64,000 nucleotides of DNA from Sipunculus nudus (lineage: Eukaryota; Annelida; Sipuncula; Golfingiida; Sipunculidae), in assembly GCA_026874595.1 (NCBI GenBank), contig CM049308.1, positions 94,603,624 to 94,667,623 of the forward strand, written 5' to 3'. Shown here one piece after another: positions 4,301 through 64,000 of the stretch. How positions within the stretch are numbered: the first letter of the stretch is position 1; every line of letters starts with the position of its first letter. Position numbers and translations under genes: made by a program. Under the pieces are notes generated by a model, which was not told the origin of the DNA, ran no database searches, and was given only the letters and a program-made list of their open reading frames with translations.

Positions 4301-5215
4301 GACTATTACATTATGTTACTTCTGTCTATATTCCTTACTTTATGTTACTCCTGTCTTTATTCCTTACTTTATGTTATTTCTGTCTATATTCCTTACTTTG
4401 TTACTTCTGTCTATATTCCTTACTTTATGTTACTTCTGTCTATATTCCTTACTTTATGTTACTTCTGTCTATATTCCTTACTGTATGTTATTTCTGTCTA
4501 TATTCCTTACTTTATGTTATATCTGTCTATATTCCTTACTTTATGTTACTTTTGTCTATGTTCCTTACTTTAAGTTATTTCTGTCTATATTCCTTACTTT
4601 ATGTTATTTCTGTCTATATTCCTTACTTTATTTTACTTCTGTCTATATTCCTTACTTTATGTTACTTCTGTCTATATTCCTTACTTGATGTTACTTCTGT
4701 CTGTATTCCTTACTTTATGTTAGTTCTGTCTATATTCCTTTCTTAAAGTTACATCTCTTTATATATCATACTTTAAGTTACATCTGTTTATATTCCTTAT
4801 TTTAAGTTATATCTATCTGTTTATAATCCTCATTTTATGTTACTTCTGTCCATATTCCTTACTTTATGTTACTTCTGTCTATGTTCCTTACTTTATGTTA
4901 CTTCTGTTTATATTCCTTACTTTATGTTACTTGTTTATATTCCTTACTTTAAGTTACATCTGTTTATATTCCTTACTTTAAGTTACATCTGTTTATATTC
5001 CTTACTTTAAGTTACATCTGTTTATATTCCTCATTTTATGTTACTTCTGTCTATATTCCTTACTTTATGTTACTTCTGTCTATATTCCTTACTTTATGTT
5101 ACTTGTCTATATTCCTTACTTTAAGCTACATCTGTTTATATTCCTTCCTTTAAGTTACATCTGTTTATATTCCTCATTTCAGGTTACTTCTGTCCATATT
5201 CCTTCTTTATAGTTA
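4301..5215. repeat. 29-bp tandem array
   Basis: About 31 units with the core CTATATTCCTTACTTTATGT followed by TACTTCTGT (29 bp). The first half is near-uniform. The second half alternates units ending ACTTCTGTC with units carrying AAGTTACATCTGTTT, so at least two unit variants are interspersed. 29 is not a multiple of three, so the array is open for long stretches in all three frames at once. That argues against coding. Confidence 0.95.
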
Positions 5216-5759
5216 TCTGTCTTGTCTCTAGTGTGTCTGCTTTATAATGATCATGCCTCACACAGCTGTAATCATGGCTTTCATTTTTTTATGCCAGCGA
5301 ATGGGGCAATTTCATGAGGAACTATACTATTATTACCAAGTAATAAAATTCTGAAAATAAGATTTTAGATAATAAGAACCAAAACATCAACTTTAGGATA
5401 ACTCCATCAGTAATCCTTACTGAGTTCACTGATGAAACTATAATTATTGTTCTTAGTTTGTTTTATTATTACGAATATGTTATTACTTCATTCAGACATT
5501 TCAAATAGCCAGTTCAATACAATATAGCAAACCAGGTATTTCACAGATTTACCATCATAACATTTATCAGTGCAATTATGTATTATTATGTGTCTGGAAT
5601 CTTTTCATGGTTGAATACACAAATGTTCATGTAAGTTAGTGAAAGTGTCAACGTAGTATCTCAAGGGTAAATGTACGCTCTTTACACAGAGCTTTACCTA
5701 TAGGGCTACTACCTATATTGTAAGGCGCTGTTTGTAATGACCTCGTATCCTGAATTGCT
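5216..5759. other. no gene recognised
   Basis: AT-rich single-copy-looking sequence with no supported exon or repeat. Confidence 0.5.
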
Positions 5760-23130: not shown

Positions 23131-23283
23131 TAACATCAGGGTTCCCTGGTTATCTGACTTGTCACAGCTCACTGTATCAGCTAACATCAGGGTTCCCTGC
23201 TTATCTGACTTGTCACAGCTCACTGTATCAGCTAACATCAGGGTTCCGGTTATCTGACTTGTCACAGCTCACTGTATCAGCTA
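23131..23283. repeat. 51-bp tandem triplication
   Basis: Three units of TAACATCAGGGTTCCCTGGT...CACAGCTCACTGTATCAGC start at 23131, 23182 and 23233. The third unit lacks four bases (CCCT). Confidence 0.95.
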
Positions 23284-24800
23284 GTTAATCTGGGTTTGAT
23301 ACAGCAGTCATGCATTGTCTTGTTGCATCAGTTCTATAATCAACATTCATGAAAACACAAATTGAGTCTATAGGACAATCAGGCACTGACTTGTTTGTAC
23401 ATGATCATGGGATGAGGACAGATATTCAGTGTTTGACTACTTTCCAAGTGGTTATCAGGATTGCTGGGTTTTCACTGTGAGGTAACTGCTATGGGTTTTA
23501 GACAGGATTATTTGATGGGTTTACACTGTGAGGTAACTGCTCTGGGTTTCAGGATAGATTTCATGGGTTTTCACTGTGAGGTAACTGCTATGGGTTTTAG
23601 ACAGGATTATTTGATGGGTTTACACTGTGAGGTAACTGCTCTGGGTTTCAGGATAGATTTCATGGGTTTTCACTGTCAGGTAACTGACCCAGGTTTTAGA
23701 CAGGATTATTTGATGGGTTTACACTGTGAGGTAACTGCTCTGGGTTTCAGGATAGATTTCATGGGTTTTCACTGTCAGGTAACTGACCCAGGTTTTAGAC
23801 AGGATTATTTGATGGGTTTACACTGTGAGGTAACTGCTCTGGGTTTCAGGATAGATTTCATGGGTTTTCACTGTCAGGTAACTGACCCAAGTTTTAGACA
23901 GGATTATTTGATGGGTTTACACTGTGAGGTAACTGCTCTGGGTTTCAGGATAGATTTCATGGGTTTTCACTGTCAGGTAACTGCTATGGGTTTTAGACAG
24001 GATTATTTGATGGGTTTACACTGTGAGGTAACTGCTCTGGGTTTCAGGATAGATTTCATGGGTTTTCACTGTCAGGTAACTGACCCAGGTTTTAGACAGG
24101 ATTATTTGATGGGTTTACACTGTGAGGTAACTGCTCTGGGTTTCAGGATAGATTTCATGGGTTTTCACTGTCAGGTAACTGACCCAGGTTTTAGACAGGA
24201 TTATTTGATGGGTTTACACTGTGAGGTAACTGCTCTGGGTTTCAGGATAGATCTCATGGGTTTTCACTTTCAGGTAACTGACCCAGGTTTTAGACAGGAT
24301 TATTTGATGGGTTTACACTGTGAGGTAACTGCTCTGGGTTTCAGGATAGATTTCATGGGTTTTCACTGTCAGGTAACTGACCCAGGTTTTAGACAGGATT
24401 ATTTGATGGGTTTACACTGTGAGGTAACTGCTCTGGGTTTCAGGATAGATTTCATGGGTTTTCACTGTCAGGTAACTGACCCAGGTTTTAGACAGGATTA
24501 TTTGATGGGTTTACACTGTGAGGTAACTGCTCTGGGATTCAGGATAGATTTCATGGGTTTTCACTGTCAGGTAACTGACCCAGGTTTTAGACAGGATTAT
24601 TTGATGGGTTTACACTGTGAGGTAACTGCTCTGGGTTTCAGGATAGATTTCATGGGTTTTCACTGTCAGGTAACTGACCCAGGTTTTAGACAGGATTATT
24701 TGATGGGTTTACACTGTGAGGTAACTGCTCTGGGTTTCAGGATAGATTTCATGGGTTTTCACTGTCAGGTAACTGACCCAGGTTTTAGACAGGATTATTT

Positions 24801-27403
24801 GATGGTTTTACACTGTGAGGTCACTGCCAATGATTTCAGGGAAGATTATTTAATGGGTTTTCACTTTGAGGTAACTGCTCTTGGTGTTCGGCAGGATTAT
24901 TTTATGGGTTTTCACTGTCAGGTAACTGACTCAGATTTTGAAGCAGGATTATTTGATGGGTTTTCACTGTGAGGTGACTGCTCTGGGTTTCAGGATAGAT
25001 TATTTCATGGGTTTTCACTGTGAGATAACTGTTCTGGGTATTTTGCAGGATTATTTCATGGGTTTTCACTGTGAGGTAACTGCTCTGGGTTTCAGGCAGG
25101 ATCATCATGGGTTTTCATGATGAGGTAACTGCCAATGATTTCAGGCAAGATTATTTGATGGGTTTTCACAGTGAGGTAACTGCCGATGATTTCACGCAAG
25201 ATTATTTAATGGGTTTTCATTGTGAGGTTACTGTTCTGGGCTTCAGGCGAAATCATTTCATGGGTTTTCTCTAGGAAGTAACTGCCCCAGTCTTAAGGTA
25301 GGATTATTTCATGGGTTTTCACTGTCAGGTAACTGACTCAGGTTTTAGACAGGATTATTTGATGGGTTTTCACTGTGAGGTAACTGACCCAGGTTTCAGG
25401 ATAGATTATTTCATGGGTTTTCACTGTGAGAAAACTGTTCTGGGTTTCAGGATAGATTTCATGGGTTTTCACTGTCAGGTAACTGACCCAGGTTTTAGAC
25501 AGGATTATTTGATGGGTTTACACTGTGAGGTAACTGCTCTGGGTTTCAGGATAGATTTCATGGGTTTACACTGTCAGGTAACTGACCCAGGTTTTAGACA
25601 GGATTATTTGATGGGTTTACACTGTGAGGTAACTGCTCTGGGTTTCAGGATAGATTTCATGGGTTTTCACTGTCAGGTAACTGACCCAGGTTTTAGACAG
25701 GATTATTTGATGGGTTAACACTGTGAGGTAACTGCTCTGGGTTTCAGGATAGATTTCATGGGTTTTCACTGTCAGGTAACTGACCCAGGTTTTAGACAGG
25801 ATTATTTGATGGGTTTACACTGTGAGGTAACTGCTCTGGGTTTCAGGATAGATTTCATGGGTTTTCACTGTCAGGTAACGGACCCAGGTTTTAGACAGGA
25901 TTATTTGATGGGTTTACCCTGTGAGGTAACTGCTCTGGGTTTCAGGATAGATTTCATGGGTTTTCACTGTCAGGTAACTGACCCAGGTTTTAGACAGGAT
26001 TATTTGATGGGTTTTCACTGTGAGGTAACTGCTCTGGGTTTCAGGATAGATTTCATGGGTTTTCACTGTCAGGTAACTGACTCAGGTTTTAGACAGGATT
26101 ATTTGATGGGTTTACACTGTGAGGTAACTACTCTGGGTTTCAGGATAGATTTCATGGGTTTTCACTGTCAGGTAACTGACTCAGGTTTTAGACAGGATTA
26201 TTTGATGGGTTTTCACTGTGAGGTAACTGCTCTGGGTTTCAGGATAGATTTCATGGGTTTTCACTGTCAGGTAACTGACCCAGGTTTTAGACAGGATTAT
26301 TTGATGGGTTTTCACTGTGAGGTAACTGCTCTGGGTTTCAGGATAGATTATTTCATGGGTTTTCACTGTCAGGTAACTGACCCAGGTTTTAGACAGGATA
26401 ATTTGATAGGTTTACACTGTGAGGTAACTGCTCTGGGTTTCAGGTTAGATTTCATGGGTTTTCACTGTCAGGTAACTGACCCAGGTTTTAGACAGGATTA
26501 TTTGATGGGTTTACACTGTGAGGTAACTGCTCTAGGTTTCAGGATAGATTTCATGGGTTTTCACTGTCAGGTAATTGACCCAGGTTTTAGACAGGATTAT
26601 TTGATGGGTTTACACTGTGAGGTTACTGCTCTGGGTATCAGGATAGATATCATGGGTTTTCACTGTCAGGTAACTGACTCAGGTTTTAGACAGGATTATT
26701 TGATGGGTTTACACTGTGAGGTAACTGCTCTGGGTTTCAGGATAGATTTCATGGGTTTTCACTGTCAGGTAACTGACTCAGGTTTTAGACAGGATTATTT
26801 GATGGGTTTACACTGTGAGGTAACTGCTCTGGGTTTCAGGATAGATTTCATGGGTTTTCACTGTCAGGTAACTGACCCAGGTTTTAGACAGGATTATTTG
26901 ATGGGTTTTCACTGTGAGGTAACTGCTCTGGGTTTCAGGATAGATTATTTCATGGGTTTTCACTGTGAGGTAACTGCTCTGGGTTTCAGGATAGATTATT
27001 TCATGGGTTTTCACTGTGAGGTAACTGTTCTGGGTAATTTGCAGGATTATTTCATGGGTTTTCACTGTGAGGTTACTGCTCTGGGTTTCAGGCAGGATTA
27101 TTTCATGGGTTTTCATGATGAGGTAACTGCCAATGATTTCAGGCAAGATTATTTGATGGGTTTTTACTCTGAGGTAACTGCCAATCATTTCAGGCAAGAT
27201 AATTTGATGGGTTTTTACTGCTGGGTTACTGCTCTGGGTTTCAGGATAGATTTCATGGGTTTTCACTGTCAGGTAACTGACCCAGGTTTTAGACAGGATT
27301 ATTTGATGGGTTTACACTGTGAGGTAACTGCTCTGGGTTTCAGGATAGATTTCATGGGTTTTCACTGTCAGGTAACTGACCCAGGTTTTAGACAGGATTA
27401 TTT
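24801..27403. repeat. higher-order block 1 (2603 bp)
   Basis: Defined by the marker variant GATGGTTTTACACTGTGAGG, which starts at 24801, 27404 and 29206. The block holds a distinctive irregular segment (about 24801-25310) followed by ordinary dimers. Because 2603 is not a multiple of three, the reading frame shifts between blocks. Confidence 0.85.
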
Positions 27404-29205
27404 GATGGTTTTACACTGTGAGGTCACTGCCAATGATTTCAGGGAAGATTATTTAATGGGTTTTCACTTTGAGGTAACTGCTCTTGGTGTTCGGCAGGAT
27501 TATTTTATGGGTTTTCACTGTCAGGTAACTGACTCAGATTTTGAAGCAGGATTATTTGATGGGTTTTCACTGTGAGGTGACTGCTCTGGGTTTCAGGATA
27601 GATTATTTCATGGGTTTTCACTGTGAGATAACTGTTCTGGGTATTTTGCAGGATTATTTCATGGGTTTTCACTGTGAGGTAACTGCTCTGGGTTTCAGGC
27701 AGGATCATCATGGGTTTTCATGATGAGGTAACTGCCAATGATTTCAGGCAAGATTATTTGATGGGTTTTCACAGTGAGGTAACTGCCGATGATTTCACGC
27801 AAGATTATTTAATGGGTTTTCATTGTGAGGTTACTGTTCTGGGCTTCAGGCGAAATCATTTCATGGGTTTTCTCTAGGAAGTAACTGCCCCAGTCTTAAG
27901 GTAGGATTATTTCATGGGTTTTCACTGTCAGGTAACTGACTCAGGTTTTAGACAGGATTATTTGATGGGTTTTCACTGTGAGGTAACTGACCCAGGTTTC
28001 AGGATAGATTATTTCATGGGTTTTCACTGTGAGAAAACTGTTCTGGGTTTCAGGATAGATTTCATGGGTTTTCACTGTCAGGTAACTGACCCAGGTTTTA
28101 GACAGGATTATTTGATGGGTTTACACTGTGAGGTAACTGCTCTGGGTTTCAGGATAGATTTCATGGGTTTACACTGTCAGGTAACTGACCCAGGTTTTAG
28201 ACAGGATTATTTGATGGGTTTACACTGTGAGGTAACTGCTCTGGGTTTCAGGATAGATTTCATGGGTTTTCACTGTCAGGTAACTGACCCAGGTTTTAGA
28301 CAGGATTATTTGATGGGTTAACACTGTGAGGTAACTGCTCTGGGTTTCAGGATAGATTTCATGGGTTTTCACTGTCAGGTAACTGACCCAGGTTTTAGAC
28401 AGGATTATTTGATGGGTTTACACTGTGAGGTAACTGCTCTGGGTTTCAGGATAGATTTCATGGGTTTTCACTGTCAGGTAACGGACCCAGGTTTTAGACA
28501 GGATTATTTGATGGGTTTACCCTGTGAGGTAACTGCTCTGGGTTTCAGGATAGATTTCATGGGTTTTCACTGTCAGGTAACTGACCCAGGTTTTAGACAG
28601 GATTATTTGATGGGTTTTCACTGTGAGGTAACTGCTCTGGGTTTCAGGATAGATTTCATGGGTTTTCACTGTCAGGTAACTGACTCAGGTTTTAGACAGG
28701 ATTATTTGATGGGTTTACACTGTGAGGTAACTGCTCTGGGTTTCAGGATAGATTTCATGGGTTTTCACTGTCAGGTAACTGACTCAGGTTTTAGACAGGA
28801 TTATTTGATGGGTTTTCACTGTGAGGTAACTGCTCTGGGTTTCAGGATAGATTTCATGGGTTTTCACTGTCAGGTAACTGACCCAGGTTTTAGACAGGAT
28901 TATTTGATGGGTTTTCACTGTGAGGTAACTGCTCTGGGTTTCAGGATAGATTATTTCATGGGTTTTCACTGTCAGGTAACTGACCCAGGTTTTAGACAGG
29001 ATAATTTGATAGGTTTACACTGTGAGGTAACTGCTCTGGGTTTCAGGTTAGATTTCATGGGTTTTCACTGTCAGGTAACTGACTCAGGTTTTAGACAGGA
29101 TTATTTGATGGGTTTACACTGTGAGGTAACTGCTCTGGGTTTCAGGATAGATTTCATGGGTTTTCACTGTCAGGTAACTGACCCAGGTTTTAGACAGGAT
29201 TATTT
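27404..29205. repeat. higher-order block 2 (1802 bp, shortened copy of block 1)
   Basis: Repeats block 1 almost exactly, including the private TAA variant (GATGGGTTAACACTG at about 28313, equal to 25710 in block 1). It lacks 801 bp, exactly 8 dimers plus small irregularities, from its distal part. Confidence 0.85.
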
Positions 29206-32200
29206 GATGGTTTTACACTGTGAGGTCACTGCCAATGATTTCAGGGAAGATTATTTAATGGGTTTTCACTTTGAGGTAACTGCTCTTGGTGTTCGGCAGG
29301 ATTATTTTATGGGTTTTCACTGTCAGGTAACTGACTCAGATTTTGAAGCAGGATTATTTGATGGGTTTTCACTGTGAGGTGACTGCTCTGGGTTTCAGGA
29401 TAGATTATTTCATGGGTTTTCACTGTGAGATAACTGTTCTGGGTATTTTGCAGGATTATTTCATGGGTTTTCACTGTGAGGTAACTGCTCTGGGTTTCAG
29501 GCAGGATCATCATGGGTTTTCATGATGAGGTAACTGCCAATGATTTCAGGCAAGATTATTTGATGGGTTTTCACAGTGAGGTAACTGCCGATGATTTCAC
29601 GCAAGATTATTTAATGGGTTTTCATTGTGAGGTTACTGTTCTGGGCTTCAGGCGAAATCATTTCATGGGTTTTCTCTAGGAAGTAACTGCCCCAGTCTTA
29701 AGGTAGGATTATTTCATGGGTTTTCACTGTCAGGTAACTGACTCAGGTTTTAGACAGGATTATTTGATGGGTTTTCACTGTGAGGTAACTGACCCAGGTT
29801 TCAGGATAGATTATTTCATGGGTTTTCACTGTGAGAAAACTGTTCTGGGTTTCAGGATAGATTTCATGGGTTTTCACTGTCAGGTAACTGACCCAGGTTT
29901 TAGACAGGATTATTTGATGGGTTTACACTGTGAGGTAACTGCTCTGGGTTTCAGGATAGATTTCATGGGTTTACACTGTCAGGTAACTGACCCAGGTTTT
30001 AGACAGGATTATTTGATGGGTTTACACTGTGAGGTAACTGCTCTGGGTTTCAGGATAGATTTCATGGGTTTTCACTGTCAGGTAACTGACCCAGGTTTTA
30101 GACAGGATTATTTGATGGGTTAACACTGTGAGGTAACTGCTCTGGGTTTCAGGATAGATTTCATGGGTTTTCACTGTCAGGTAACTGACCCAGGTTTTAG
30201 ACAGGATTATTTGATGGGTTTACACTGTGAGGTAACTGCTCTGGGTTTCAGGATAGATTTCATGGGTTTTCACTGTCAGGTAACGGACCCAGGTTTTAGA
30301 CAGGATTATTTGATGGGTTTACCCTGTGAGGTAACTGCTCTGGGTTTCAGGATAGATTTCATGGGTTTTCACTGTCAGGTAACTGACCCAGGTTTTAGAC
30401 AGGATTATTTGATGGGTTTTCACTGTGAGGTAACTGCTCTGGGTTTCAGGATAGATTTCATGGGTTTTCACTGTCAGGTAACTGACTCAGGTTTTAGACA
30501 GGATTATTTGATGGGTTTACACTGTGAGGTAACTGCTCTGGGTTTCAGGATAGATTTCATGGGTTTTCACTGTCAGGTAACTGACTCAGGTTTTAGACAG
30601 GATTATTTGATGGGTTTTCACTGTGAGGTAACTGCTCTGGGTTTCAGGATAGATTTCATGGGTTTTCACTGTCAGGTAACTGACCCAGGTTTTAGACAGG
30701 ATTATTTGATGGGTTTTCACTGTGAGGTAACTGCTCTGGGTTTCAGGATAGATTATTTCATGGGTTTTCACTGTCAGGTAACTGACCCAGGTTTTAGACA
30801 GGATAATTTGATAGGTTTACACTGTGAGGTAACTGCTCTGGGTTTCAGGTTAGATTTCATGGGTTTTCACTGTCAGGTAACTGACCCAGGTTTTAGACAG
30901 GATTATTTGATGGGTTTACACTGTGAGGTAACTGCTCTAGGTTTCAGGATAGATTTCATGGGTTTTCACTGTCAGGTAATTGACCCAGGTTTTAGACAGG
31001 ATTATTTGATGGGTTTACACTGTGAGGTTACTGCTCTGGGTATCAGGATAGATATCATGGGTTTTCACTGTCAGGTAACTGACTCAGGTTTTAGACAGGA
31101 TTATTTGATGGGTTTACACTGTGAGGTAACTGCTCTGGGTTTCAGGATAGATTTCATGGGTTTTCACTGTCAGGTAACTGACTCAGGTTTTAGACAGGAT
31201 TATTTGATGGGTTTACACTGTGAGGTAACTGCTCTGGGTTTCAGGATAGATTTCATGGGTTTTCACTGTCAGGTAACGGACCCAGGTTTTAGACAGGATT
31301 ATTTGATGGGTTTACCCTGTGAGGTAACTGCTCTGGGTTTCAGGATAGATTTCATGGGTTTTCACTGTCAGGTAACTGACCCAGGTTTTAGACAGGATTA
31401 TTTGATGGGTTTTCACTGTGAGGTAACTGCTCTGGGTTTCAGGATAGATTTCATGGGTTTTCACTGTCAGGTAACTGACTCAGGTTTTAGACAGGATTAT
31501 TTGATGGGTTTACACTGTGAGGTAACTGCTCTGGGTTTCAGGATAGATTTCATGGGTTTTCACTGTCAGGTAACTGACTCAGGTTTTAGACAGGATTATT
31601 TGATGGGTTTTCACTGTGAGGTAACTGCTCTGGGTTTCAGGATAGATTTCATGGGTTTTCACTGTCAGGTAACTGACCCAGGTTTTAGACAGGATTATTT
31701 GATGGGTTTTCACTGTGAGGTAACTGCTCTGGGTTTCAGGATAGATTATTTCATGGGTTTTCACTGTCAGGTAACTGACCCAGGTTTTAGACAGGATAAT
31801 TTGATAGGTTTACACTGTGAGGTAACTGCTCTGGGTTTCAGGTTAGATTTCATGGGTTTTCACTGTCAGGTAACTGACCCAGGTTTTAGACAGGATTATT
31901 TGATGGGTTTACACTGTGAGGTAACTGCTCTAGGTTTCAGGATAGATTTCATGGGTTTTCACTGTCAGGTAATTGACCCAGGTTTTAGACAGGATTATTT
32001 GATGGGTTTACACTGTGAGGTTACTGCTCTGGGTATCAGGATAGATATCATGGGTTTTCACTGTCAGGTAACTGACTCAGGTTTTAGACAGGATTATTTG
32101 ATGGGTTTACACTGTGAGGTAACTGCTCTGGGTTTCAGGATAGATTTCATGGGTTTTCACTGTCAGGTAACTGACTCAGGTTTTAGACAGGATTATTTGA

Positions 32201-34323
32201 TGGGTTTACACTGTGAGGTAACTGCTCTGGGTTTCAGGATAGATTTCATGGGTTTTCACTGTCAGGTAACTGACCCAGGTTTTAGACAGGATTATTTGAT
32301 GGGTTTTCACTGTGAGGTAACTGCTCTGGGTTTCAGGATAGATTATTTCATGGGTTTTCACTGTGAGGTAACTGCTCTGGGTTTCAGGATAGATTATTTC
32401 ATGGGTTTTCACTGTGAGGTAACTGTTCTGGGTAATTTGCAGGATTATTTCATGGGTTTTCACTGTGAGGTTACTGCTCTGGGTTTCAGGCAGGATTATT
32501 TCATGGGTTTTCATGATGAGGTAACTGCCAATGATTTCAGGCAAGATTATTTGATGGGTTTTTACTCTGAGGTAACTGCCAATCATTTCAGGCAAGATAA
32601 TTTGATGGGTTTTTACTGCTGGGTTACTGCTCTGGGTTTCAGGATAGATTTCATGGGTTTTCACTGTCAGGTAATTGACCCAGGTTTTAGACAGGATTAT
32701 TTGATGGGTTTACACTGTGAGGTTACTGCTCTGGGTATCAGGATAGATATCATGGGTTTTCACTGTCAGGTAACTGACTCAGGTTTTAGACAGGATTATT
32801 TGATGGGTTTACACTGTGAGGTAACTGCTCTGGGTTTCAGGATAGATTTCATGGGTTTTCACTGTCAGGTAATTGACCCAGGTTTTAGACAGGATTATTT
32901 GATGGGTTTACACTGTGAGGTTACTGCTCTGGGTATCAGGATAGATATCATGGGTTTTCACTGTCAGGTAACTGACTCAGGTTTTAGACAGGATTATTTG
33001 ATGGGTTTACACTGTGAGGTAACTGCTCTGGGTTTCAGGATAGATTTCATGGGTTTTCACTGTCAGGTAACTGACTCAGGTTTTAGACAGGATTATTTGA
33101 TGGGTTTTCACTGTGAGGTAACTGCTCTGGGTTTCAGGATAGATTTCATGGGTTTTCACTGTCAGGTAACTGACCCAGGTTTTAGACAGGATTATTTGAT
33201 GGGTTTTCACTGTGAGGTAACTGCTCTGGGTTTCAGGATAGATTATTTCATGGGTTTTCACTGTGAGGTAACTGCTCTGGGTTTCAGGATAGATTATTTC
33301 ATGGGTTTTCACTGTGAGGTAACTGTTCTGGGTAATTTGCAGGATTATTTCATGGGTTTTCACTGTGAGGTTACTGCTCTGGGTTTCAGGCAGGATTATT
33401 TCATGGGTTTTCATGATGAGGTAACTGCCAATGATTTCAGGCAAGATTATTTGATGGGTTTTTACTCTGAGGTAACTGCCAATCATTTCAGGCAAGATAA
33501 TTTGATGGGTTTTTACTGCTGGGTTACTGCTCTGGGTTTCAGGATAGATTTCATGGGTTTTCACTGTCAGGTAATTGACCCAGGTTTTAGACAGGATTAT
33601 TTGATGGGTTTACACTGTGAGGTTACTGCTCTGGGTATCAGGATAGATATCATGGGTTTTCACTGTCAGGTAACTGACTCAGGTTTTAGACAGGATTATT
33701 TGATGGGTTTACACTGTGAGGTAACTGCTCTGGGTTTCAGGATAGATTTCATGGGTTTTCACTGTCAGGTAACTGACTCAGGTTTTAGACAGGATTATTT
33801 GATGGGTTTTCACTGTGAGGTAACTGCTCTGGGTTTCAGGATAGATTTCATGGGTTTTCACTGTCAGGTAACTGACCCAGGTTTTAGACAGGATTATTTG
33901 ATGGGTTTTCACTGTGAGGTAACTGCTCTGGGTTTCAGGATAGATTATTTCATGGGTTTTCACTGTGAGGTAACTGTTCTGGGTAATTTGCAGGATTATT
34001 TCATGGGTTTTCACTGTGAGGTTACTGCTCTGGGTTTCAGGCAGGATTATTTCATGGGTTTTCATGATGAGGTAACTGCCAATGATTTCAGGCAAGATTA
34101 TTTGATGGGTTTTTACTCTGAGGTAACTGCCAATCATTTCAGGCAAGATAATTTGATGGGTTTTTACTGCTGGGTTTCTGCTCTGGCTTTGAGGCAAGAT
34201 TATTTCATTGGTTTTCACTGTGAGGTTACTGTCCAGGATTTCAGGCAAGATTATTTGATGGGTTTTCACTGTGAGGTTACTGTTCTGGGCTTCAGGCGAG
34301 ATTATTTCATTGGTTTTCTCTAG
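29206..34323. repeat. higher-order block 3 with extra internal duplications
   Basis: Begins as a third copy of the block (private TAA variant at about 30116). It then carries an extra 993-bp duplication (the GGTTTACCCTGTGAGG variant occurs near 30316 and 31309) and further copies of the distal segment marked by GGTAATTTGCAGG at about 32432, 33332 and 33985 (steps of about 900 and 654 bp). Confidence 0.8.
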
Positions 34324-34765
34324 GAAGTAACTGCCCCAGTCTTAAGGTAGGATTATTTCATGGGTTTTCACTGTTAGGTTACTGCTTTGGGTTTTAGGCC
34401 AGATAATTTTATGGGTTTTCACTGTGGGGTTACTGCTCTGGGTTGCAGGCAAGGTTATTTTATGGGTTTTCCCTAGGGGGTAACTTCCCCAGGCTTAGGT
34501 AGGATCATTTCATGAGTTTTCACTGTTAGGTAACTGATCTGGGTTTTAGGTAGGATCATTTCATGGGTTTTCACTGTGGGGTTACTGTTCTGGGCTTCAG
34601 GCAATATTATTTGATAGGTTTTCAATGTCAGGTAACTGCCCTGGGTTTCAGTGAGGGATTATTTCATGGGTTTTTACTGTGAGGTAACTGCTCTGGGTTT
34701 CAATGCAGGATTATCTCATGGGTTTTCACTGTGAGGTAATGAACCTAGGTTTCAATGCATGATTT

Positions 34766-35029
34766 GTATTTATTTACGGATATTCTAGAAACTAACCGCA
34801 CATATTACAAGTTAATGTAGTACTCAGTGAATTAGCACTACAATGGTCCCCCCTTCCAGCAAACAACATCTCTGCCAAAGAAACTAGAATACGGGTAGTC
34901 GACAAGCGACTTCGTATATCCGCCGAAATCAGAGTGGGACAGATGAAGTGAGGCATGGATTGAGTAACAAGGGGAAATAGAGTGAGGTGTGTTGCATATT
35001 AGCATGGATGTCTGCAGCTGAAATGTGTA
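34766..35029. other. unique junction between the giant array and the next element
   Basis: Short non-repetitive sequence, slightly GC-richer, with CTTCGTATATCCGCCG. No gene seen. Confidence 0.4.
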
Positions 35030-42209: not shown

Positions 42210-43250
42210 CTAGATAATATTTTGAACATAAGGAAGTCTTTGAGAAGATATAGAAACATGATAAGACTTCATAAGAAGCTTACGGGACAAGCCGAGGAGC
42301 ATCTCCACAGGTGGTATTATGTATCGTTGATAAGCATTGCTCTTCCAATGCCTAACAATTTAATTTCCCAGTCATTGAGCCTCGCTGCCGCTGCTGTTGT
42401 TGCACCCCCCCCCCACTCTAAAGCTATGGCTAGTGTACTGTTCTGGGTCAATACCTGCGAGTGCTAGATAGAGCCTGGTCTGTCTTACAAACATACCCCG
42501 ACTAAGTGTCGCACCGTTTGGATATACGAAGGTATGGGACAAACTTTGACGCTCGGTGACATTAAGTATCATGTATACCCTCATTGCGCAGCATGCGCAT
42601 ACTCTATGGCCGTTACATGCCACATAAACTTTAAAACCTTTGTTACGATGATCAGTTTTTGACAATTTTATGAAAACCTGCATGTATGTCAACCCATCGG
42701 CTGATGCCCCAAATACAACATCCTGATTGGTAAGATGCACATATGGGTTAAATTCCCGTAATGACGGTATAGTAAATTCTGAAACTCTCAGTAAGTGGGC
42801 TAATGTCATAGCTGCCCACAATAATTTTGCTTGATATGTATCATCAATAAGAGGAAACAGTTTTTGGAGTATTTGAACTGTAATAGGTAATTTTGATTTG
42901 GTTGAACCTGACTGGTACTCAACCGCTCTTAAAGCAAGTTTTAGTCTGGGGGCAGAAGTTGGGGGCGGAGAATGGCCTGACAATACATGCAAACCACATA
43001 TCGAGGCGATATGCACATTTATAGTATTAAACTTGAATCTTTTCACTTTGAAGCAATGTGTTACATATAAGAGAAGTGTCTCTTCTGAACATGGCATAGC
43101 AATGAGTCCATAATGCTCGCAAAACTGCAAGTACTGTTTTTGTGTTGATGTATATGTGCAGATTGTATTTGGTCTATTACCATGCCTCACCAGATGGCTA
43201 CACTCCTGGCAGAGCTTCTCTGCGGTCAGATATGTCCCTGAAATTAACAA
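42210..43250 (-). pseudogene. tyrosine recombinase of a DIRS-order retrotransposon, frameshifted
   Basis: Tyrosine recombinases cut and rejoin DNA through a catalytic Tyr; DIRS elements use one instead of a DDE integrase. An intact 292-codon frame (42372-43250) shows LLRVSEFT (first catalytic Arg), KLSKTDHRNKGFKV (Lys), and HSFRVGG (H-x-x-R). A run of ten Gs (42405-42414) then throws the frame. The continuation is readable in the other frames: ATTAAAARLNDWEIKLLG, then after a second shift WKSNAYQRYI with the Tyr nucleophile, stopping at 42210. The catalytic set is thus present but disrupted. The element also has an RNase H fragment just upstream (43270-43557) and lacks its reverse transcriptase. 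Confidence 0.85.
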
Positions 43251-43269
43251 ACTTTAAATACAATAATTG

Positions 43270-43557
43270 TCATTCAAAATACACCAGTGAATTTGGTATT
43301 GTAGGATAAACATCTGATTGAGGTACTGGTTTCCTAAATGTACCTAGCTGGAGCCGGCTGAGACTGTCCACAGCACTGTTTTTAACACCGGGCACGTGAT
43401 ATGCCCAGTATTCAATGTTATTACTTGCACATATGAAAAACATAGCACTAACTAATTGCATAATTTCCGGCAACTTACTAGAACCAGATTGCAGAATCTG
43501 GACAGTGATATTATCACAATGAAATAGCACACGTTTCCTGCACAACATGGTATGCAA
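43270..43557 (-). pseudogene. RNase H C-terminal fragment of the same DIRS-type element
   Basis: Encodes VLFHCDNITVQILQSGSS (RNase H TDN-type Asp motif), then AYHVPGVKNSAVDSLSRLQ, the closing H-x-x-G-x-x-N-x-x-x-D-x-LSR signature of gypsy/DIRS RNase H, and about 25 tail residues before the stop. Similarity ends at about 43555, so the element is 5'-truncated and has lost gag and RT. 19 bp separate this stop from the recombinase frame. Confidence 0.8.
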
Positions 43558-43560
43558 ACT

Positions 43561-46867: not shown

Positions 46868-47286
46868 ATTTTTTTTTAAATATTTTTTGGTGGAGGTAAC
46901 CACCCTAATTTTTTTATGCTAACTTAACTACGTATATGTACATCTGCAGATTTCCATTCCAGTTTTGGACTTCGTGACAGGGCAGTATCACACTCTTCCT
47001 CTCATTTTATATCCTGGTGTTAACCAGGCCTGGTGACTACTGCACCAGCAGGCCCTGGGTGTGTAATCGTCCCCATTGCTGGGTCATACCACCGAGGAAC
47101 CCCCAAAAGGCGCACTCGTTTGTGATTGAAACCTGGCTGTTGGGCACAGCCTTGTCATGAAGCCTGCAAAGTGCTCACCCTGGGTGGGGGCTGACTATGA
47201 AAAGCTCACCGCCTCGGCTGAGATTCGAACTCACTATCTCCTGGCTTTGAGTCCTGTGCTCTACCCCTGAGCTACAGAAGCCGGTA
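46868..47286 (-). mobile_element. tRNA-derived SINE with target-site duplications
   Basis: On the minus strand the element starts CCGGCTTCTGTAGCTCAGGG. It has an A box (TAGCTCAGGGGTAGAGC) and a B box (GAGTTCGAATC) at tRNA spacing, ending the head at GCCGAGGC. The anticodon arm does not pair properly, so this is a SINE head rather than a functional tRNA. A tRNA-unrelated body of about 330 bp follows, and the tail is A-rich (TTTAAAAAAAAA-type). TGTATCCTTATG flanks it on both sides (46856-46867 and 47287-47298), a 12-bp target-site duplication as expected for LINE-mobilised SINEs. Confidence 0.8.
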
Positions 47287-47298
47287 TGTATCCTTATG

Positions 47299-47854
47299 CT
47301 AAGATTATGGGCTGTTTACCAGGGTAAGAATGCAACCTGATGAAGGACCGCTGCGATGCAATCCTCCTCAATAAGGCTTGTATCAGGACTCAAGTTAGGC
47401 TTACCAGCCCAATATAAATGTCTACTGAGTCTGTTGTCACAGCTACAGCTGATATGGCTATATTTAAGTAACATGTATTTAAGTATGATGAACTGAATAC
47501 AGAGTAAATACTGTCTGTCCATGTTGAAATTAGGGTTATAGAGTTTACATGCTATGAGACAAAGTCTGCTGAATAAGCCATAGGTTGAGGTTACAGTTCT
47601 GCAGTCATCTGATACCAGGCTTCACACCTACTCCCTGCAGCTGATGTTCATGGAATTACTGGCACAGAACTGTGGCAGGATAATTACCAAGTTTGCTAAA
47701 TTCATCAACTAAAGTTCAGGTTACTGAGTACATAAAGGAGACATGTGACTTAACCTTGATGCCTCAGTCAGATACAGTTCACCACAATAAGTACATGATA
47801 TCAACTGTTTCTACAGTAGCTGTTTTATTGTGCCTTTTGCTGGGTATGAGGCTA
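47299..47854. other. no gene recognised
   Basis: Single-copy-looking sequence. A plus-strand frame from 47693 contains a hydrophobic run (STVAVLLCLLLGMRLLL) and reads into the inserted retrotransposon, but its start is unsupported. Confidence 0.4.
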
Positions 47855-47974
47855 TTACTGTGTAATCAGACTGATGTACTCTATTTGATAGGAAAGTGGC
47901 CAAACATTGCTGAGCAAGGGGTCATTCACCAGTCCTATATATGTAAACATGATCAAAAGTTTACAAGCATTATC
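47855..47974. repeat. 120-bp direct repeat flanking the DIRS-type insertion, left copy
   Basis: TTACTGTGTAATCAGACTGA...TTTACAAGCATTATC. Identical over 120 bp to 50338-50457. Sequence outside the two copies is unrelated at the inner edges. Confidence 0.95.
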
Positions 47975-48106
47975 GCCGTATCCTATGCATCTGTGGAAGA
48001 TGCAATTAATATCATCCAAAACATGGGTCCTACAGTTTATTTAGCAAAGGCGGACATAGAATCGGCATTCAGGCTTCTGCCTATCAAACCTTTTCGAGGA
48101 ATTTAG
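47975..48106 (+). pseudogene. reverse transcriptase, N-terminal piece (palm motif A)
   Basis: Reads AVSYASVEDAINIIQNMG, then VYLAKADIESAFRLLPIKP. The Asp of KADIESAFRL is the motif-A metal ligand of DIRS/gypsy-like RTs. After about 48092 the frame runs into a stop (RGI-stop), because the segment that normally carries motif B is missing. The next RT piece continues in another frame from 48093. Confidence 0.8.
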
Positions 48107-49088
48107 CACAGCTCTGCACTATATAGTCAGTTCCAAACAAATACCAGGTAGAATAGTACACTACCTCGATGATTTTCTTTTTATAGGCCACAACAAAGAA
48201 GCTTGTCAAAATTTACTAGATACATTTCATAGAACATGCGATTCATTAGGCATTCCCCTGGCTAAAAACAAAACAGTAGGCCCGAAGCAAAGGCTATCAT
48301 TCCTAGGGATCGAATTAGATTGCAAGTCGAAAACTGCTAGGCTTCCCAATGATAAGGTTTTACAGTGCAAAAACCAACTATCTTGCTACATGAAGAAAAA
48401 GAAAATTACACTAAAAGCCCTGCAGTCATTAATCGGCCTGCTCAATTTTGCCTGCTCGGTTATCCTCTCAGGTAGAGCCTTCTTAAGGAGGTTGATAGAT
48501 AAAACCATGGGTTTACAGAAACCATTTCATCACACTAGATTAGGTCATGAGGAAAGATCGGATCTCAAACTTTGGCAAGAATTCTTAGTCCACAACAATA
48601 GGAAAAGCTTCTTTTTAAATCGGGAATGGGATACTTCAGACAGCCTCATGTTGCATACAGATGCAGCGAAAGGCTTAGGCTATGGCGCAATTTTTGGCAG
48701 GGATTGGTTTTTTGGGCAATTTCCAAAAGAATGGGAAAATGCAGACATAGTGACCCTAGAACTCATACCAATTGTCATGGCCCTGCAGTGCTGGGGCCAG
48801 CAACTTAAAAACAAATGGATTCTTATCTTCACTGACAATCAGGCACTTGTTTTAATCATAAACAATCAGTCATGCAAAGAAAAAACAACTATGAATTTAA
48901 TCAGACAATTCGTATTAATTACATTACAATATAACATTCTGTTTAAAGCTAAGCATATTGCAGGGAAAATGAACTCAGCAGCTGATGCATTGTCTCGATT
49001 GCAGGTTTCCAGGTTCCGCAAACTGGTGCCAGAAGCTCGGCAGATACCAATGCCAGTCACATGCCCAGCCAGGTATTCACACTTTTAA
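48093..49088 (+). pseudogene. reverse transcriptase C-terminal part plus RNase H
   Basis: 332 open codons without an ATG start. Begins FEEFSTALHYIV, then VHYLDDFLFIG (motif C, the DD metal ligands), LGIPLAKNKTVGP and LSFLGIELD (motifs D/E), and the thumb (ALQSLIGLLNFACSVI). RNase H follows: LMLHTDAAKGLGYGAIF (first Asp), TLELIPIVMALQCWG (Glu), ILIFTDNQALVLIINNQ (Asp), and AKHIAGKMNSAADALSRLQ. Compared with intact DIRS RTs, the stretch between LLPIKP and FEEFSTAL (motif B, usually with a PxG/S loop) is absent. The missing segment and frame change make the enzyme non-functional. Confidence 0.85.
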
Positions 49089-50006
49089 GACAGGGGGATA
49101 CCTTGGTTGGGCAAAGCCTTGCTCCATCCACGAGGGAGGCTTACTCAAGAGTATGGGATTATTTCATATTCTTTTGCACCAACATTGGTATGCCCCATTG
49201 GGCACATACACCGGTGTCACCATCGGTCTTATTTATATTCTTAACAGATTGTTTTACAGATGGGTTGTCTGGCTCATCCCTTGCTACATATTCTTCTGCT
49301 ATATCCTACGTTCATAAGTTATCAAACCTCCCTGACCCTGGCTCATCATTAGCAATTCGAAAACTCATAGTTGCGGCCCAAAAGAGTGCCCAAAATAATG
49401 ACATACGCTGTCCAATCACAAAGCCCATCTTGTCAAAATTAGTAAATGCAGTTCCGGTAACTTCTACCTCCGCATACTGTCGGTAGATGTACCCAGCTCT
49501 ATATCAGATTTGTTTTTTTCGGATTCTTTAGGCTAGGAGAGCTGGTCGCAAAGACTAAGGAACACCTCGGCACGGTAATACAAATTCAAAATGTAATGAC
49601 TATTTCAGAAAACGGCATCCCTATAAGACAACACTTTAAGCTAATTCATGCAAAAACAGTTAAGGCTGGTCAGTACCAGCAAGTAGTTATAGCGGCACAG
49701 CCGGGCAATCATTGCCCCGTAAGATCACTTTTGGCCTTTTTGCAATTCAGAGGGAACCAAAATCGTCCATTATTCTGCTTACAAAACCTCAAACCACTGC
49801 TCAGAAATCAAGTAGAGAAACAACTAGCTAAAGACCTCAAATTCATTCACCTAGACCCCAAACAATTCAAAGGCCACAGCTTCCGCATTGGCGCTGCCAC
49901 GGAAGCTGCGGTCGCAGGTCTTAGCAACGCTCAGATAAGATCTCTTGGGAGATGGCACACAGATGCTTTAAAAAAATACATCAGATTACATGCAGTTCAA
50001 AGCTAA
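49061..50006 (+). pseudogene. tyrosine recombinase of the DIRS-type element, broken by stop and frameshift
   Basis: The N-terminal SAM-like part reads LAPSTREAYSRVWDYFIFFC and ATYSSAISYVHKLSNLPDP up to a TAG at 49484-49486. The same frame continues (MYPALYQICFF) to a T7-type run near 49510, where one base shifts it. The other frame then gives GFFRLGELVAKTKEHLG (catalytic Arg), LIHAKTVKAGQYQQVV (Lys), GHSFRIGAATEAAVAGLS (H-x-x-R) and RSLGRWHTDALKKYIR (Trp/His and the Tyr nucleophile), ending at 50006. It overlaps the RNase H frame by 28 bp, a common arrangement in this order. All catalytic residues remain readable. Confidence 0.85.
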
Positions 50007-58894: not shown

Positions 58895-61800
58895 AGCATG
58901 TTTATGGCAGAAAGTCACACTGAGGATGTTCTGAGCACCTGCAAGTAATGCGTGAGCTGGGACTTTTTTCTTTAAAATTGGAAGTTCTGCTTTTGTTTGG
59001 CTTATGTTGAGAGTTCAGTGATATAATTTGTATTTTCTTTACTTCTACATTTTTCCTACACAAATATTCTTTATAAGCATGGCAGAAAGTCACACTGAGG
59101 ATGTTTTGAGCACCTGCAAGTAATGCGTGAGCTGGGACTTTTTTCTTTAAAATTGGAAGTTCTGCTTTTGTTTGGCTTATGTTGAGAGTTCAGTGATATA
59201 ATTTGTATTTTCTTTACTTCTACATTTTTCCTACACCAATATTCTTTATAAGCATGGCAGAAAGTCACACTGAGGATGTTCTAAGCACCTGCAAGTAATG
59301 CGTGAGCTGGGACTTTTTTCTTTAAAATGGGAAGTTCTGCTTTTGTTTGGCTTATGTTGAGAGTTCAGTGATATAATTTGTATTTTCTTTACTTCTACAT
59401 TTTTCCTACACCAATATTCTTTATAAGCATGGCAAAAAGTCACACTGAGGATGTTTTGAGCACCTGCATGTAATGCATGAGCTGGGACTTTTTTCTTTAA
59501 AATGGGAAGTTCTGCTTTTGTTTGGCTTATGTTGAGAGTTCAGTGATATAATTTGTATTTTCTTTACTTCTACATTTTTCCTACACCAATATTCTTTATA
59601 AGCATGGCAGAAAGTCACACTGAGGATGTTTTGAGCACCTGCAAGTAATGCGTGAGCTGGGACTTTTTTCTTTAAAATGGGAAGTTCTGCTTTTGTTTGG
59701 CTTATGTTGAGAGTTCAGTGATATAATTTGTATTTTCTTTACTTCTACATTTTTCCTACACCAATATTCTTTATAAGCATGGCAGAAAGTCACACTGAGG
59801 ATGTTTTGAGCACCTGCAAGTAATGCGTGAGCTGGGACTTTTTTCTTTAAAATGGGAAGTTCTGCTTTTGTTTGGCTTATGTTGAGAGTTCAGTGATATA
59901 ATTTGTATTTTCTTTACTTCTACATTTTTCCTACACCAATATTCTTTATAAGCATGGCAGAAAGTCACACTGAGGATGTTTTGAGCACCTGCAAGTAATG
60001 CGTGAGCTGGGACTTTTTTCTTTAAAATGGGAAGTTCTGCTTTTGTTTGGCTTATGTTGAGAGTTCAGTGATATAATTTGTATTTTCTTTACTTCTACAT
60101 TTTTCCTACACCAATATTCTTTATAAGCATGGCAGAAAGTCACACTGAGGATGTTTTGAGCACCTGCATGTAATGCATGAGCTGGGACTTTTTTCTTTAA
60201 AATGGGAAGTTCTGCTTTTGTTTGGCTTATGTTGAGAGTTCAGTGATATAATTTGTATTTTCTTTACTTCTACATTTTTCCTACACCAATATTCTTTATA
60301 AGCATGGCAGAAAGTCACACTGAGGATGTTTTGAGCACCTGCATGTAATGCATGAGCTGGGACTTTTTTCTTTAAAATGGGAAGTTCTGCTTTTGTTTGG
60401 CTTATGTTGAGAGTTCAGTGATATAATTTGTATTTTCTTTACTTCTACATTTTTCCTACACCAATATTCTTTATAAGCACGGCAGAAAGTCACACTGAGG
60501 ATGTTTTGAGCACCTGCATGTAATGCATGAGCTGGGACTTTTTTCTTTAAAATAGGAAGTTCTGCTTTTGTTTGGCTTATGTTGAGAGTTCAGTGATATA
60601 ATTTGTATTTTCTTTACTTCTACATTTTTCCTACACCAATATTCTTTATAAGCATGGCAGAAAGTCACACTGAGGATGTTTTGAGCACCTGCATGTAATG
60701 CATGAGCTAGGACTTTTTTCTTTAAAATGGGAAGTTCTGCTTTTGTTTGGCTTATGTTGAGAGTTCAGTGATATAATTTCTATTTTCTTTACTTCTACAT
60801 TTTTCCTACACCAATATTCTTTATAAGCATGGCAGAAAGTCACACTGAGGATGTTTTGAGCACCTGCATGTAATGCATGAGCTGGGACTTTTTTCTTTAA
60901 AATGGGAAGTTCTGCTTTTGTTTGGCTTATGTTGAGAGTTCAGTGATATAATTTGTATTTTCTTTACTTCTACATTTTTCCTACACCAATATTCTTTATA
61001 AGCATGGCAGAAAGTCACACTGAGGATGTTTTGAGCACCTGCAAGTAATGCATGAGCTGGGACTTTTTTCTTTAAAATGGGAAGTTCTGCTTTTGTTTGG
61101 CTTATGTTGAGAGTTCAGTGATATAATTTGTTTTTTCTTTACTTCTACATTTTTCCTACATCAATATTCTTTATAAGCATGGCAGAAAGTCACAATGAGG
61201 ATGTTTTGAGCACCTGCATGTAATGCATGAGCTGGGACTTTTTTCTTTAAAATGGGAAGTTCTGCTTTTGTTTGGCTTATGTTGAGAGTTCAGTGATATA
61301 ATTTGTTTTTTCTTTACTTCTACATTTTTCCTACACCAATATTCTTTATAAGCATGGCAGAAAGTCACACTGAGGATGTTTTGAGCACCTGCATGTAATG
61401 CGTGAGCTGGGACTTTTTTCTTTAAAATGGGAAGTTCTGCTTTTGTTTGGCTTATGTTGAGAGTTCAGTGATATAATTTGTATTTTCTTTACTTCTACAT
61501 TTTTCCTACACCAATATTCTTTATAAGCATGGCAGAAAGTCACACTGAGGATGTTTTGAGCACCTGCATGTAATGCATGAGCTGGGACTTTTTTCTTTAA
61601 AATGGGAAGTTCTGCTTTTGTTTGGCTTATGTTGAGATTTCAGTGATATAATTTGTATTTTCTTTACTTCTACATTTTTCCTACACCAATATTCTTTATA
61701 AGCATGGCAGAAAGTCACACTGAGGATGTTTTGAGCACCTGCATGTAATGCATGAGCTGGGACTTTTTTCTTTAAAATGGGAAGTTCTGCTTTTGTTTGG

Positions 61801-64000
61801 CTTATGTTGAGAGTTCAGTGATATAATTTGTATTTTCTTTACTTCTACATTTTTCCTACACCAATATTCTTTATAAGCATGGCAGAAAGTCACACTGAGG
61901 ATGTTTTGAGCACCTGCATGTAATGCATGAGCTGGGACTTTTTTCTTTGAAATGGGAAGTTCTGCTTTTGTTTGGCTTATGTTGAGAGTTCAGTGATATA
62001 ATTTGTATTTTCTTTACTTCTACATTTTTCCTACACCAATATTCTTTATAAGCATGGCAGAAAGTCACACTGAGGATGTTTTGAGCACCTGCAAGTAATG
62101 CGTGAGCTGGGACTTTTTTCTTTAAAATGGGAAGTTCTGCTTTTGTTTGGCTTATGTTGAGAGTTCAGTGATATAATTTGTATTTTCTTTACTTCTACAT
62201 TTTTCCTACACAAATATTCTTTATAAGCATGGCAGAAAGTCACACTGAGGATGTTCTGAGCACCTGCAAGTAATGCGTGAGCTGGGACTTTTTTCTTTAA
62301 AATGGGAAGTTCTGCTTTTGTTTGGCTTATGTTGAGAGTTCAGTGATATAATTTGTATTTTCTTTACTTCTGCATTTTTCCTACACCAATATTCTTTATA
62401 AGCATGGCAGAAAGTCACACTGAGGATGTTTTAAGCACCTGCATGTAATGCATGAGCTGGGACTTTTTTCTTTAAAATGGGAAGTTCTGCTTTTGTTTGG
62501 CTTATGTTGAGAGTTCAGTGATATAATTTGTATTTTCTTTACTTCTACATTTTTCCTACACAAATATTCTTTATAAGCATGGCAGAAAGTCACACTGAGG
62601 ATGTTTTGAGCACCTGCAAGTAATGCGTGAGCTGGGACTTTTTTCTTTAAAATGGGAAGTTCTGCTTTTGTTTGGCTTATGTTGAGAGTTCAGTGATATA
62701 ATTTGTATTTTCTTTACTTCTACATTTTTCCTACACCAATATTCTTTATAAGCATGGCAGAAAGTCACACTGAGGATGTTTTGAGCACCTGCAAGTAATG
62801 CGTGAGCAGGGACTTTTTTCTTTAAAATGGGAAGTTCTGCTTTTGTTTGGCTTATGTTGAGAGTTCAGTGATATAATTTGTATTTTCTTTACTTCTACAT
62901 TTTTCCTACACCAATATTCTTTATAAGCATGGCAGAAAGTCACACTGAGGATGTTTTGAGCACCTGCATGTAATGCATGAGCTGGGACTTTTTTCTTTAA
63001 AATGGGAAGTTCTGCTTTTGTTTGGCATATGTTGAGAGTTCAGTGATATAATTTCTATTTTCTTTACTTCTACATTTTTCCTACACCAATATTCTTTATA
63101 AGCATGGCAGAAAGTCACACTGAGGATGTTTTGAGCACCTGCATGTAATGCATGAGCTGGGACTTTTTTCTTTAAAATGGGAAGTTCTGCTTTTGTTTGG
63201 CTTATGTTTAGAGTTCAGTGATATAATTTGTATTTTCTTTACTTCTACATTTTTCCTACACCAATATTCTTTATAAGCATGGCAGAAAGTCACACTGAGG
63301 ATGTTTTGAGCCCCTGCATGTAATGCATGAGCTGGGACTTTTTTCTTTAAAATGGGAAGTTCTGCTTTTGTTTGGCTTATGTTGAGAGTTCAGTGATATA
63401 ATTTGTATTTTCTTTACTTCTGCATTTTTCCTACACCAATATTCTTTATAAGCATGGCAGAAAGTCACACTGAGGATGTTTTGAGCACCTGCAAGTAATG
63501 CGTGAGCTGGGACTTTTTTCTTTAAAATGGGAAGTTCTGCTTTTGTTTGGCTTATGTTGAGAGTTCAGTGATATAATTTGTATTTTCTTTACTTCTACAT
63601 TTTTCCTACACCAATATTCTTTATAAGCACGGCAGAAAGTCACACTGAGGATGTTTTGAGCACCTGCATGTAATGCATGAGCTGGGACTTTTTTCTTTAA
63701 AATGGGAAGTTCTGCTTTTGTTTGGCTTATGTTGAGAGTTCAGTGATATAATTTGTATTTTCTTTACTTCTACATTTTTCCTACACCAATATTCTTTATA
63801 AGCACGGCAGAAAGTCACACTGAGGATGTTTTGAGCACCTGCATGTAATGCATGAGCTGGGACTTTTTTCTTTAAAATGGGAAGTTCTGCTTTTGTTTGG
63901 CTTATGTTGAGAGTTCAGTGATATAATTTGTATTTTCTTTACTTCTACATTTTTCCTACACCAATATTCTTTATAAGCATGGCAGAAAGTCACACTGAGG
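58895..64000. repeat. 175-bp satellite array, runs off the window
   Basis: About 29 head-to-tail units of exactly 175 bp, from GGCAGAAAGTCACACTGAGG through TTCTTTATAAGCAT, with no length variation. Each unit contains a 65-codon minus-strand frame (MTFCHAYKEYWCRKNVEVKK...). 175 is not a multiple of three and each frame ends inside the next unit, so it cannot be a repeat protein. Unit variants: GCAAGTAATGCGTGAGC versus GCATGTAATGCATGAGC; ACACCAA versus ACACAAA. Confidence 0.98.

Follow-up and report, generated by a model that had tools for sequence, protein, structure and literature searches.

Anatomy of the array and its place in the genome

The analysed window is a stretch of 64,000 nucleotides of Sipunculus nudus (C3:94603624-94667623 in an assembly of 1,426,538,692 bases, or 1.43 Gb, in 153 contigs), and it contains an array of short tandem repeats slightly longer than 11 kb (Table 1). 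TRF reported a single array at 23465-34739 with a period of 99 bp and 112.7 copies. A dynamic-programming parse of 23465-34772 resolved it into 226 units, all intact and with no gap base between them. The parse row at 23419-23464, which fits no unit, was left out as flank, and this reduced the counts from 227 to 226 units and from 50 to 49 distinct ones. Units of 51 bp (143) and 48 bp (73) predominate, and the other 10 measure 49, 50, 52 or 54 bp. The 51-bp and 48-bp halves make up 99-bp dimers, and diverged 51-bp monomers are present besides; compared with the 51-bp type, the 48-bp unit is 3 bp shorter and carries substitutions. A 30-mer of the 51-bp unit, searched with up to 3 mismatches, gave 113 matches and none in 100 shuffles.

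The two ends of the array differ. The left edge is homogeneous (8 distinct sequences among 27 units), whereas each of the 12 units of the right edge is distinct, with 1 to 14 positions separating these monomers from the nearest other unit. Conservation across sites is uneven among 23 diverged monomers (chi2 156, 50 df); these are related to each other and the value is given as a description only. The 51-bp unit can also be read as two halves of about 25 bp. When rotation and cut were optimised equally for real and shuffled units, 6 of 300 shuffles reached the score, which is suggestive only.

Table 1. Features of the array and its constituent blocks (positions in the window; the strand is the orientation in which the units are read)
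Feature	Position	Strand	Source
Whole array, 226 units	23465..34772	+	TRF, parse
Left edge: regular 99-bp dimers, 27 units, abrupt boundary	23465..24802	+	parse
2603-bp block, copy 1; private G>A at 26130	24653..27255	+	reconstruction
Older block, seven 51-bp-type monomers, collinear with 33902-34156 plus 34259-34360	24957..25311	+	block comparison
1802-bp block, copy 1	27256..29057	+	reconstruction
1802-bp block, copy 2; private T at 29084 in first unit	29058..30859	+	parse, reconstruction
993-bp block, copy 1	30263..31255	+	reconstruction
993-bp block, copy 2, 0 substitutions	31256..32248	+	reconstruction
702-bp block, copy X1	31952..32653	+	block comparison
198-bp duplication, exact	32654..32851	+	reconstruction
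702-bp block, copy X2, 1/702 sites differ from X1	32852..33553	+	block comparison
702-bp block, copy 3: 51-bp unit missing, last unit non-hybrid	33554..34207	+	block comparison
Hybrid joint unit	27208..27255, 32606-32653, 33506-33553	+	hybrid test
Right edge: 12 diverged monomers, none identical	34157..34772	+	parse

The distribution of the repeat was studied by a search of the assembly with a 99-mer. At least 125 matches were found (5 scored candidates), and those listed all lie at C3:94627088-94638362, which is the array itself. This search scores only its best candidates, passes over very common words, and gives counts that are lower bounds. The left flank (181 bp) was found once in the assembly. 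Exact 31-mer matches numbered 0 in viral_contigs and 0 in genome_contigs, and the region 23400-27300 had no match among phages, in collections that may exclude records of the window itself or of very similar sequence. A limited literature search found no account of this array, and the publications listed as sharing array sequence terms are unrelated, judged by their titles and the start of their abstracts.

Reconstruction of the growth steps

The preliminary description had proposed that the array has three tiers (51/48-bp halves, 99-bp dimers, and blocks of 2603 and 1802 bp) and that it grew by nested block duplications. The parse, TRF and the self-matches agree on the tiers. The longest exact self-matches are 1801 bp at a shift of 1802, 1505 bp at 2603, and 1450 bp at 4405 (2603 + 1802), followed by 1146 bp at 5398, 1087 bp at 993, 664 bp at 900, and 451 bp at 702. 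The largest block occurs three times, and each copy is cut or extended differently. Private variants are inherited by the copies, as had been claimed: the TAA variant marks the units beginning at 25711, 28314 and 30116, and the variant GGTTTACCCTG is found at 25911, 28514, 30316 and 31309.

Nested duplication was examined by undoing it. Removal of one copy each of the 993-, 1802- and 2603-bp blocks leaves a precursor of 5,910 bp, and its forward re-duplication, with the kept copies unaltered, returns 11,308 bp with 3 mismatches. With positions 26130 and 29084 reverted, the 2603-, 1802- and 993-bp steps are all letter-exact, so three large events and two substitutions are enough to recreate the array exactly; the 198-bp duplication step is likewise exact. 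About half of the array is a recent addition by three large duplications in step with the unit. Its near-identity, from which recent growth had been deduced, amounts to 2 changes over 5,398 duplicated bp.

Additional steps of about 993, 900 and 654 bp had been assigned to a third block. The 993-bp step is real, and the value of 654 bp is really 651 bp, a shift at which a 276-bp exact run is seen. The other two steps lie not inside the third block but 3' of it. They resolve into three copies of a 702-bp block, a 198-bp duplication, and a single gain or loss of 51 bp, with the shift of 900 equal to 702 + 198 and that of 651 equal to 702 - 51.

Much of the order of events can be recovered, as had been expected. 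The hybrid joint unit that closes 702-bp copies also closes the first 2603-bp block (at 27208), and consequently the 2603-bp event came after at least the first 702-bp step, a point on which the earlier picture has to be amended. The first block lacks the 993-bp step, so this step is most simply younger than the 2603-bp step. A single 2603-bp duplication taking place after the 1802-bp one cannot yield the observed block order, and for this reason the 1802-bp step is most simply younger as well. The most parsimonious order thus places the 2603-bp step before the 1802-bp and 993-bp steps, and either order fits the latter two. The 198-bp, 51-bp and second 702-bp steps may be older or younger than the 2603-bp step. 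Alternatively, the 2603-bp duplication could have happened twice, with 801 bp lost afterwards to leave the 1802-bp step, a history that needs one extra event.

The preliminary description had considered the array probably length-polymorphic or mis-assembled, and the most serious competing explanation is that the assembly doubled one true block through mis-joined reads or the merging of haplotypes. False duplication would likewise produce near-identical copies such as those described above, with just two differences in 5,398 bp. However, the exact overlaps that could be used for mis-joins are just 49, 88 and 94 bp long, the left flank was found once in the assembly, and the second 1802-bp copy begins with a unit carrying a variant that is absent from both neighbouring copies. 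The assembly, with so few contigs for its size, is also probably based on long reads. The visible evidence, namely the overlap lengths and the left flank found once, speaks mildly against mis-assembly, which is regarded as improbable, though it is the rival that fares best.

Joints, tempo and comparison with known repeats

Every block joint is in register with the unit, as follows from the intactness of all 226 units without gap bases. Joints that keep register are predicted by misaligned homologous exchange or by repair synthesis on the sister, and not by random end joining. The hybrid unit closing the 702-bp copies X1 and X2 matches the unit at 34157 in columns 1-20 and the common 48-bp unit in the remainder. 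This hybrid model has 0 mismatches, versus 5 for the best single unit; it was the strongest among 49 units tested, a comparison made without shuffle control. The base at 29084 belongs to the unit at the 1802-bp joint, and it is identical to a variant that occurs frequently in the array. A conversion patch is a likely source of it and would account for it better than a clean exchange combined with a new mutation.

The proposed path has three steps. An array of 51-bp monomers would have come first, since diverged copies of the monomer are still present at the right edge and within the blocks. Two adjacent variants, one of them 3 bp shorter, would then have been amplified as the 99-bp dimer. Finally, blocks of 198 to 2603 bp were duplicated in tandem, every time in register with the unit, most likely through unequal sister-chromatid exchange or repair synthesis off a misaligned sister; the three largest of these steps enlarged the array from the 5,910-bp precursor to its present length, with two substitutions since.

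Older and younger copies differ strongly in their divergence. When the seven monomers of the older block are compared with their counterparts near the right edge, which follow in the same order, 17 of 355 sites differ and there is one 2-bp gap; the two monomers at 34157-34258 were skipped by choice in this alignment. Recent block copies have 0 to 2 differing sites. The ratio of 17/355 in the old copies to 2/5,398 in the recently duplicated bases suggests a long quiet phase followed by a burst of growth, a contrast that conversion between copies could exaggerate. Substitution rates are in the range of 10^-9 to 10^-8 per site and year. With these general values, and with a single substitution in 2,603 bp, the 2603-bp step would be very roughly 20,000 to 190,000 years old.

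A more specific version of this history can be put forward tentatively. The joint units, one an exact hybrid and one with an array-frequent variant, may favour template-switching repair synthesis over simple exchange, and the same reading would make the locus a miniature of the path of centromeric satellites from monomer to dimer to block, taken in a burst. A long quiet phase, from which the older block copies with their 4.8% difference remain, would have been followed by about six duplications of up to 2.6 kb, with about three substitutions between copies. This version is considered doubtful, with perhaps one chance in four.

In the relevant papers, higher-order repeats are treated as nested tandem repeats with hybrid monomers (PMC8336445), a layered centromere is flanked by monomeric repeats (PMC8099727), and unequal exchange is connected with higher-order repeats (PMC7767330). 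For minisatellites, simple duplications and deletions have been described or proposed, as has the annealing of strands from sister chromatids (PMC2599865). The array resembles the higher-order repeats of primate alpha satellite in that monomers are nested in larger, much more similar blocks, a homogeneous part lies next to divergent monomers, and hybrid monomers occur (PMC8336445, PMC8099727). It differs in having a monomer of 51 bp instead of 171 bp, irregularly nested blocks, and diverged monomers that are confined to the right edge and the interior, without mirror symmetry. Moreover, it extends over 11 kb (11.3 kb) at one reported locus, and not over megabases, and is known from sequence alone. 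With the hypervariable minisatellites MS32, CEB1 and MSY1 it shares a unit length inside or close to the 9-100 bp range, and variant repeats from which a map can be read (PMC2599865). Kilobase block duplications set it apart from them, as does its being known from one assembly.

The array behaves like these systems and is best classed as a minisatellite with irregular higher-order structure. Its tandem units (51/48 bp, with the 99-bp dimer) fall within about 10-100 bp, and among the 99-mer matches listed it is locus-specific, that search giving a floor. Diverged monomers are located within much more similar multi-monomer blocks, as in higher-order repeats, and regular iteration of one block many times is not found. 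Taken together, the array is probably (about 0.82) a non-coding minisatellite that occupies a single locus, as far as a lower-bound search can tell, and that has irregular higher-order structure and grew as proposed. No host function is implied by it.

How a tandem array grew is usually a matter of statistical inference. In this case the recent steps are legible from one sequence, with their sizes, their joints and much of their order, and the locus is a compact test case for the beginnings of higher-order repeats. What took place is ordinary, well-known repeat growth; it is the order that is unusually legible.

Other readings and the neighbourhood of the array

The array might belong to a mobile element, for example as the tandem repeats of a non-autonomous transposon, and remnants of a DIRS-like reverse transcriptase and of integrase-like sequences do lie about 8-15 kb to its right. 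Nevertheless, the 99-mer matches listed come from the array alone, nothing else in the window matched the array at an E value of 1 or less, and its left flank was found once in the assembly. What the left and right flanks have in common is limited to a diverged repeat family and some short, weak matches, and none of these comes closer than about 600 bp to the left edge. An origin of this kind is therefore very unlikely.

Least plausible of all is a repetitive protein encoded by the 99-bp dimer (33 codons), for which 51, 48 and 99 are suitably divisible by 3 and one frame (30163-34323) is open across 1386 codons, because 2603 and 1802 both leave a remainder of 2 when divided by 3, and the frame is also shifted by units of 49 and 52 bp. 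Even the frame that has the longest opening is interrupted by 161 stops in the course of the array (161 to 334 in each of the six). Pfam gave only DUF2026 (E 3.6e-5) and DUF6687 (E 0.0023) on the open frame; neither family reaches its curated cut-off, nor does any single stretch. No frame is kept through units and blocks, and the array is judged to be non-coding.

Two further ideas were rejected. Growth driven by hairpins was considered, and for the two strands of one dimer the folds did not surpass those of shuffled sequence (z -0.02 and 0.30). One hand-picked stretch, 25059-25158, has a predicted hairpin (z -3.12, with 0 of 200 shuffles as good) and lies at no block joint. It is found within a block that was duplicated later, and its units recur at 27662 and 29464. 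About 180 bp to the left of the array, another 51-bp repeat is present three times (23131-23283). The periods are equal, but homology was not supported, since 28 of 500 shuffles scored as high for the plus strand and 392 of 500 for the minus.

The retroelement remnants are located at 47684-50003 (plus strand) and 42375-43560 (minus strand), and we take them to resemble DIRS-type retroelements. They comprise reverse transcriptase (Pfam E 3e-6) and integrase-like pieces (E 0.012 to 0.038), all below the cut-off. The only Rfam match in the whole window is outside the array, a tRNA-like sequence at 47210-47281 on the minus strand (29.8 bits against a threshold of 29) that ARAGORN did not call. Ten other tandem arrays, chosen from those that TRF lists in the window, were examined for exact self-matches. 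Compared with them, the array described here is the only one with exact block copies longer than 1 kb; their longest exact self-match, 516 bp, belongs to a 175-bp satellite and arises when it is shifted by one unit. This satellite (58904-64000) shows 98% matches between copies and runs past the end of the window.
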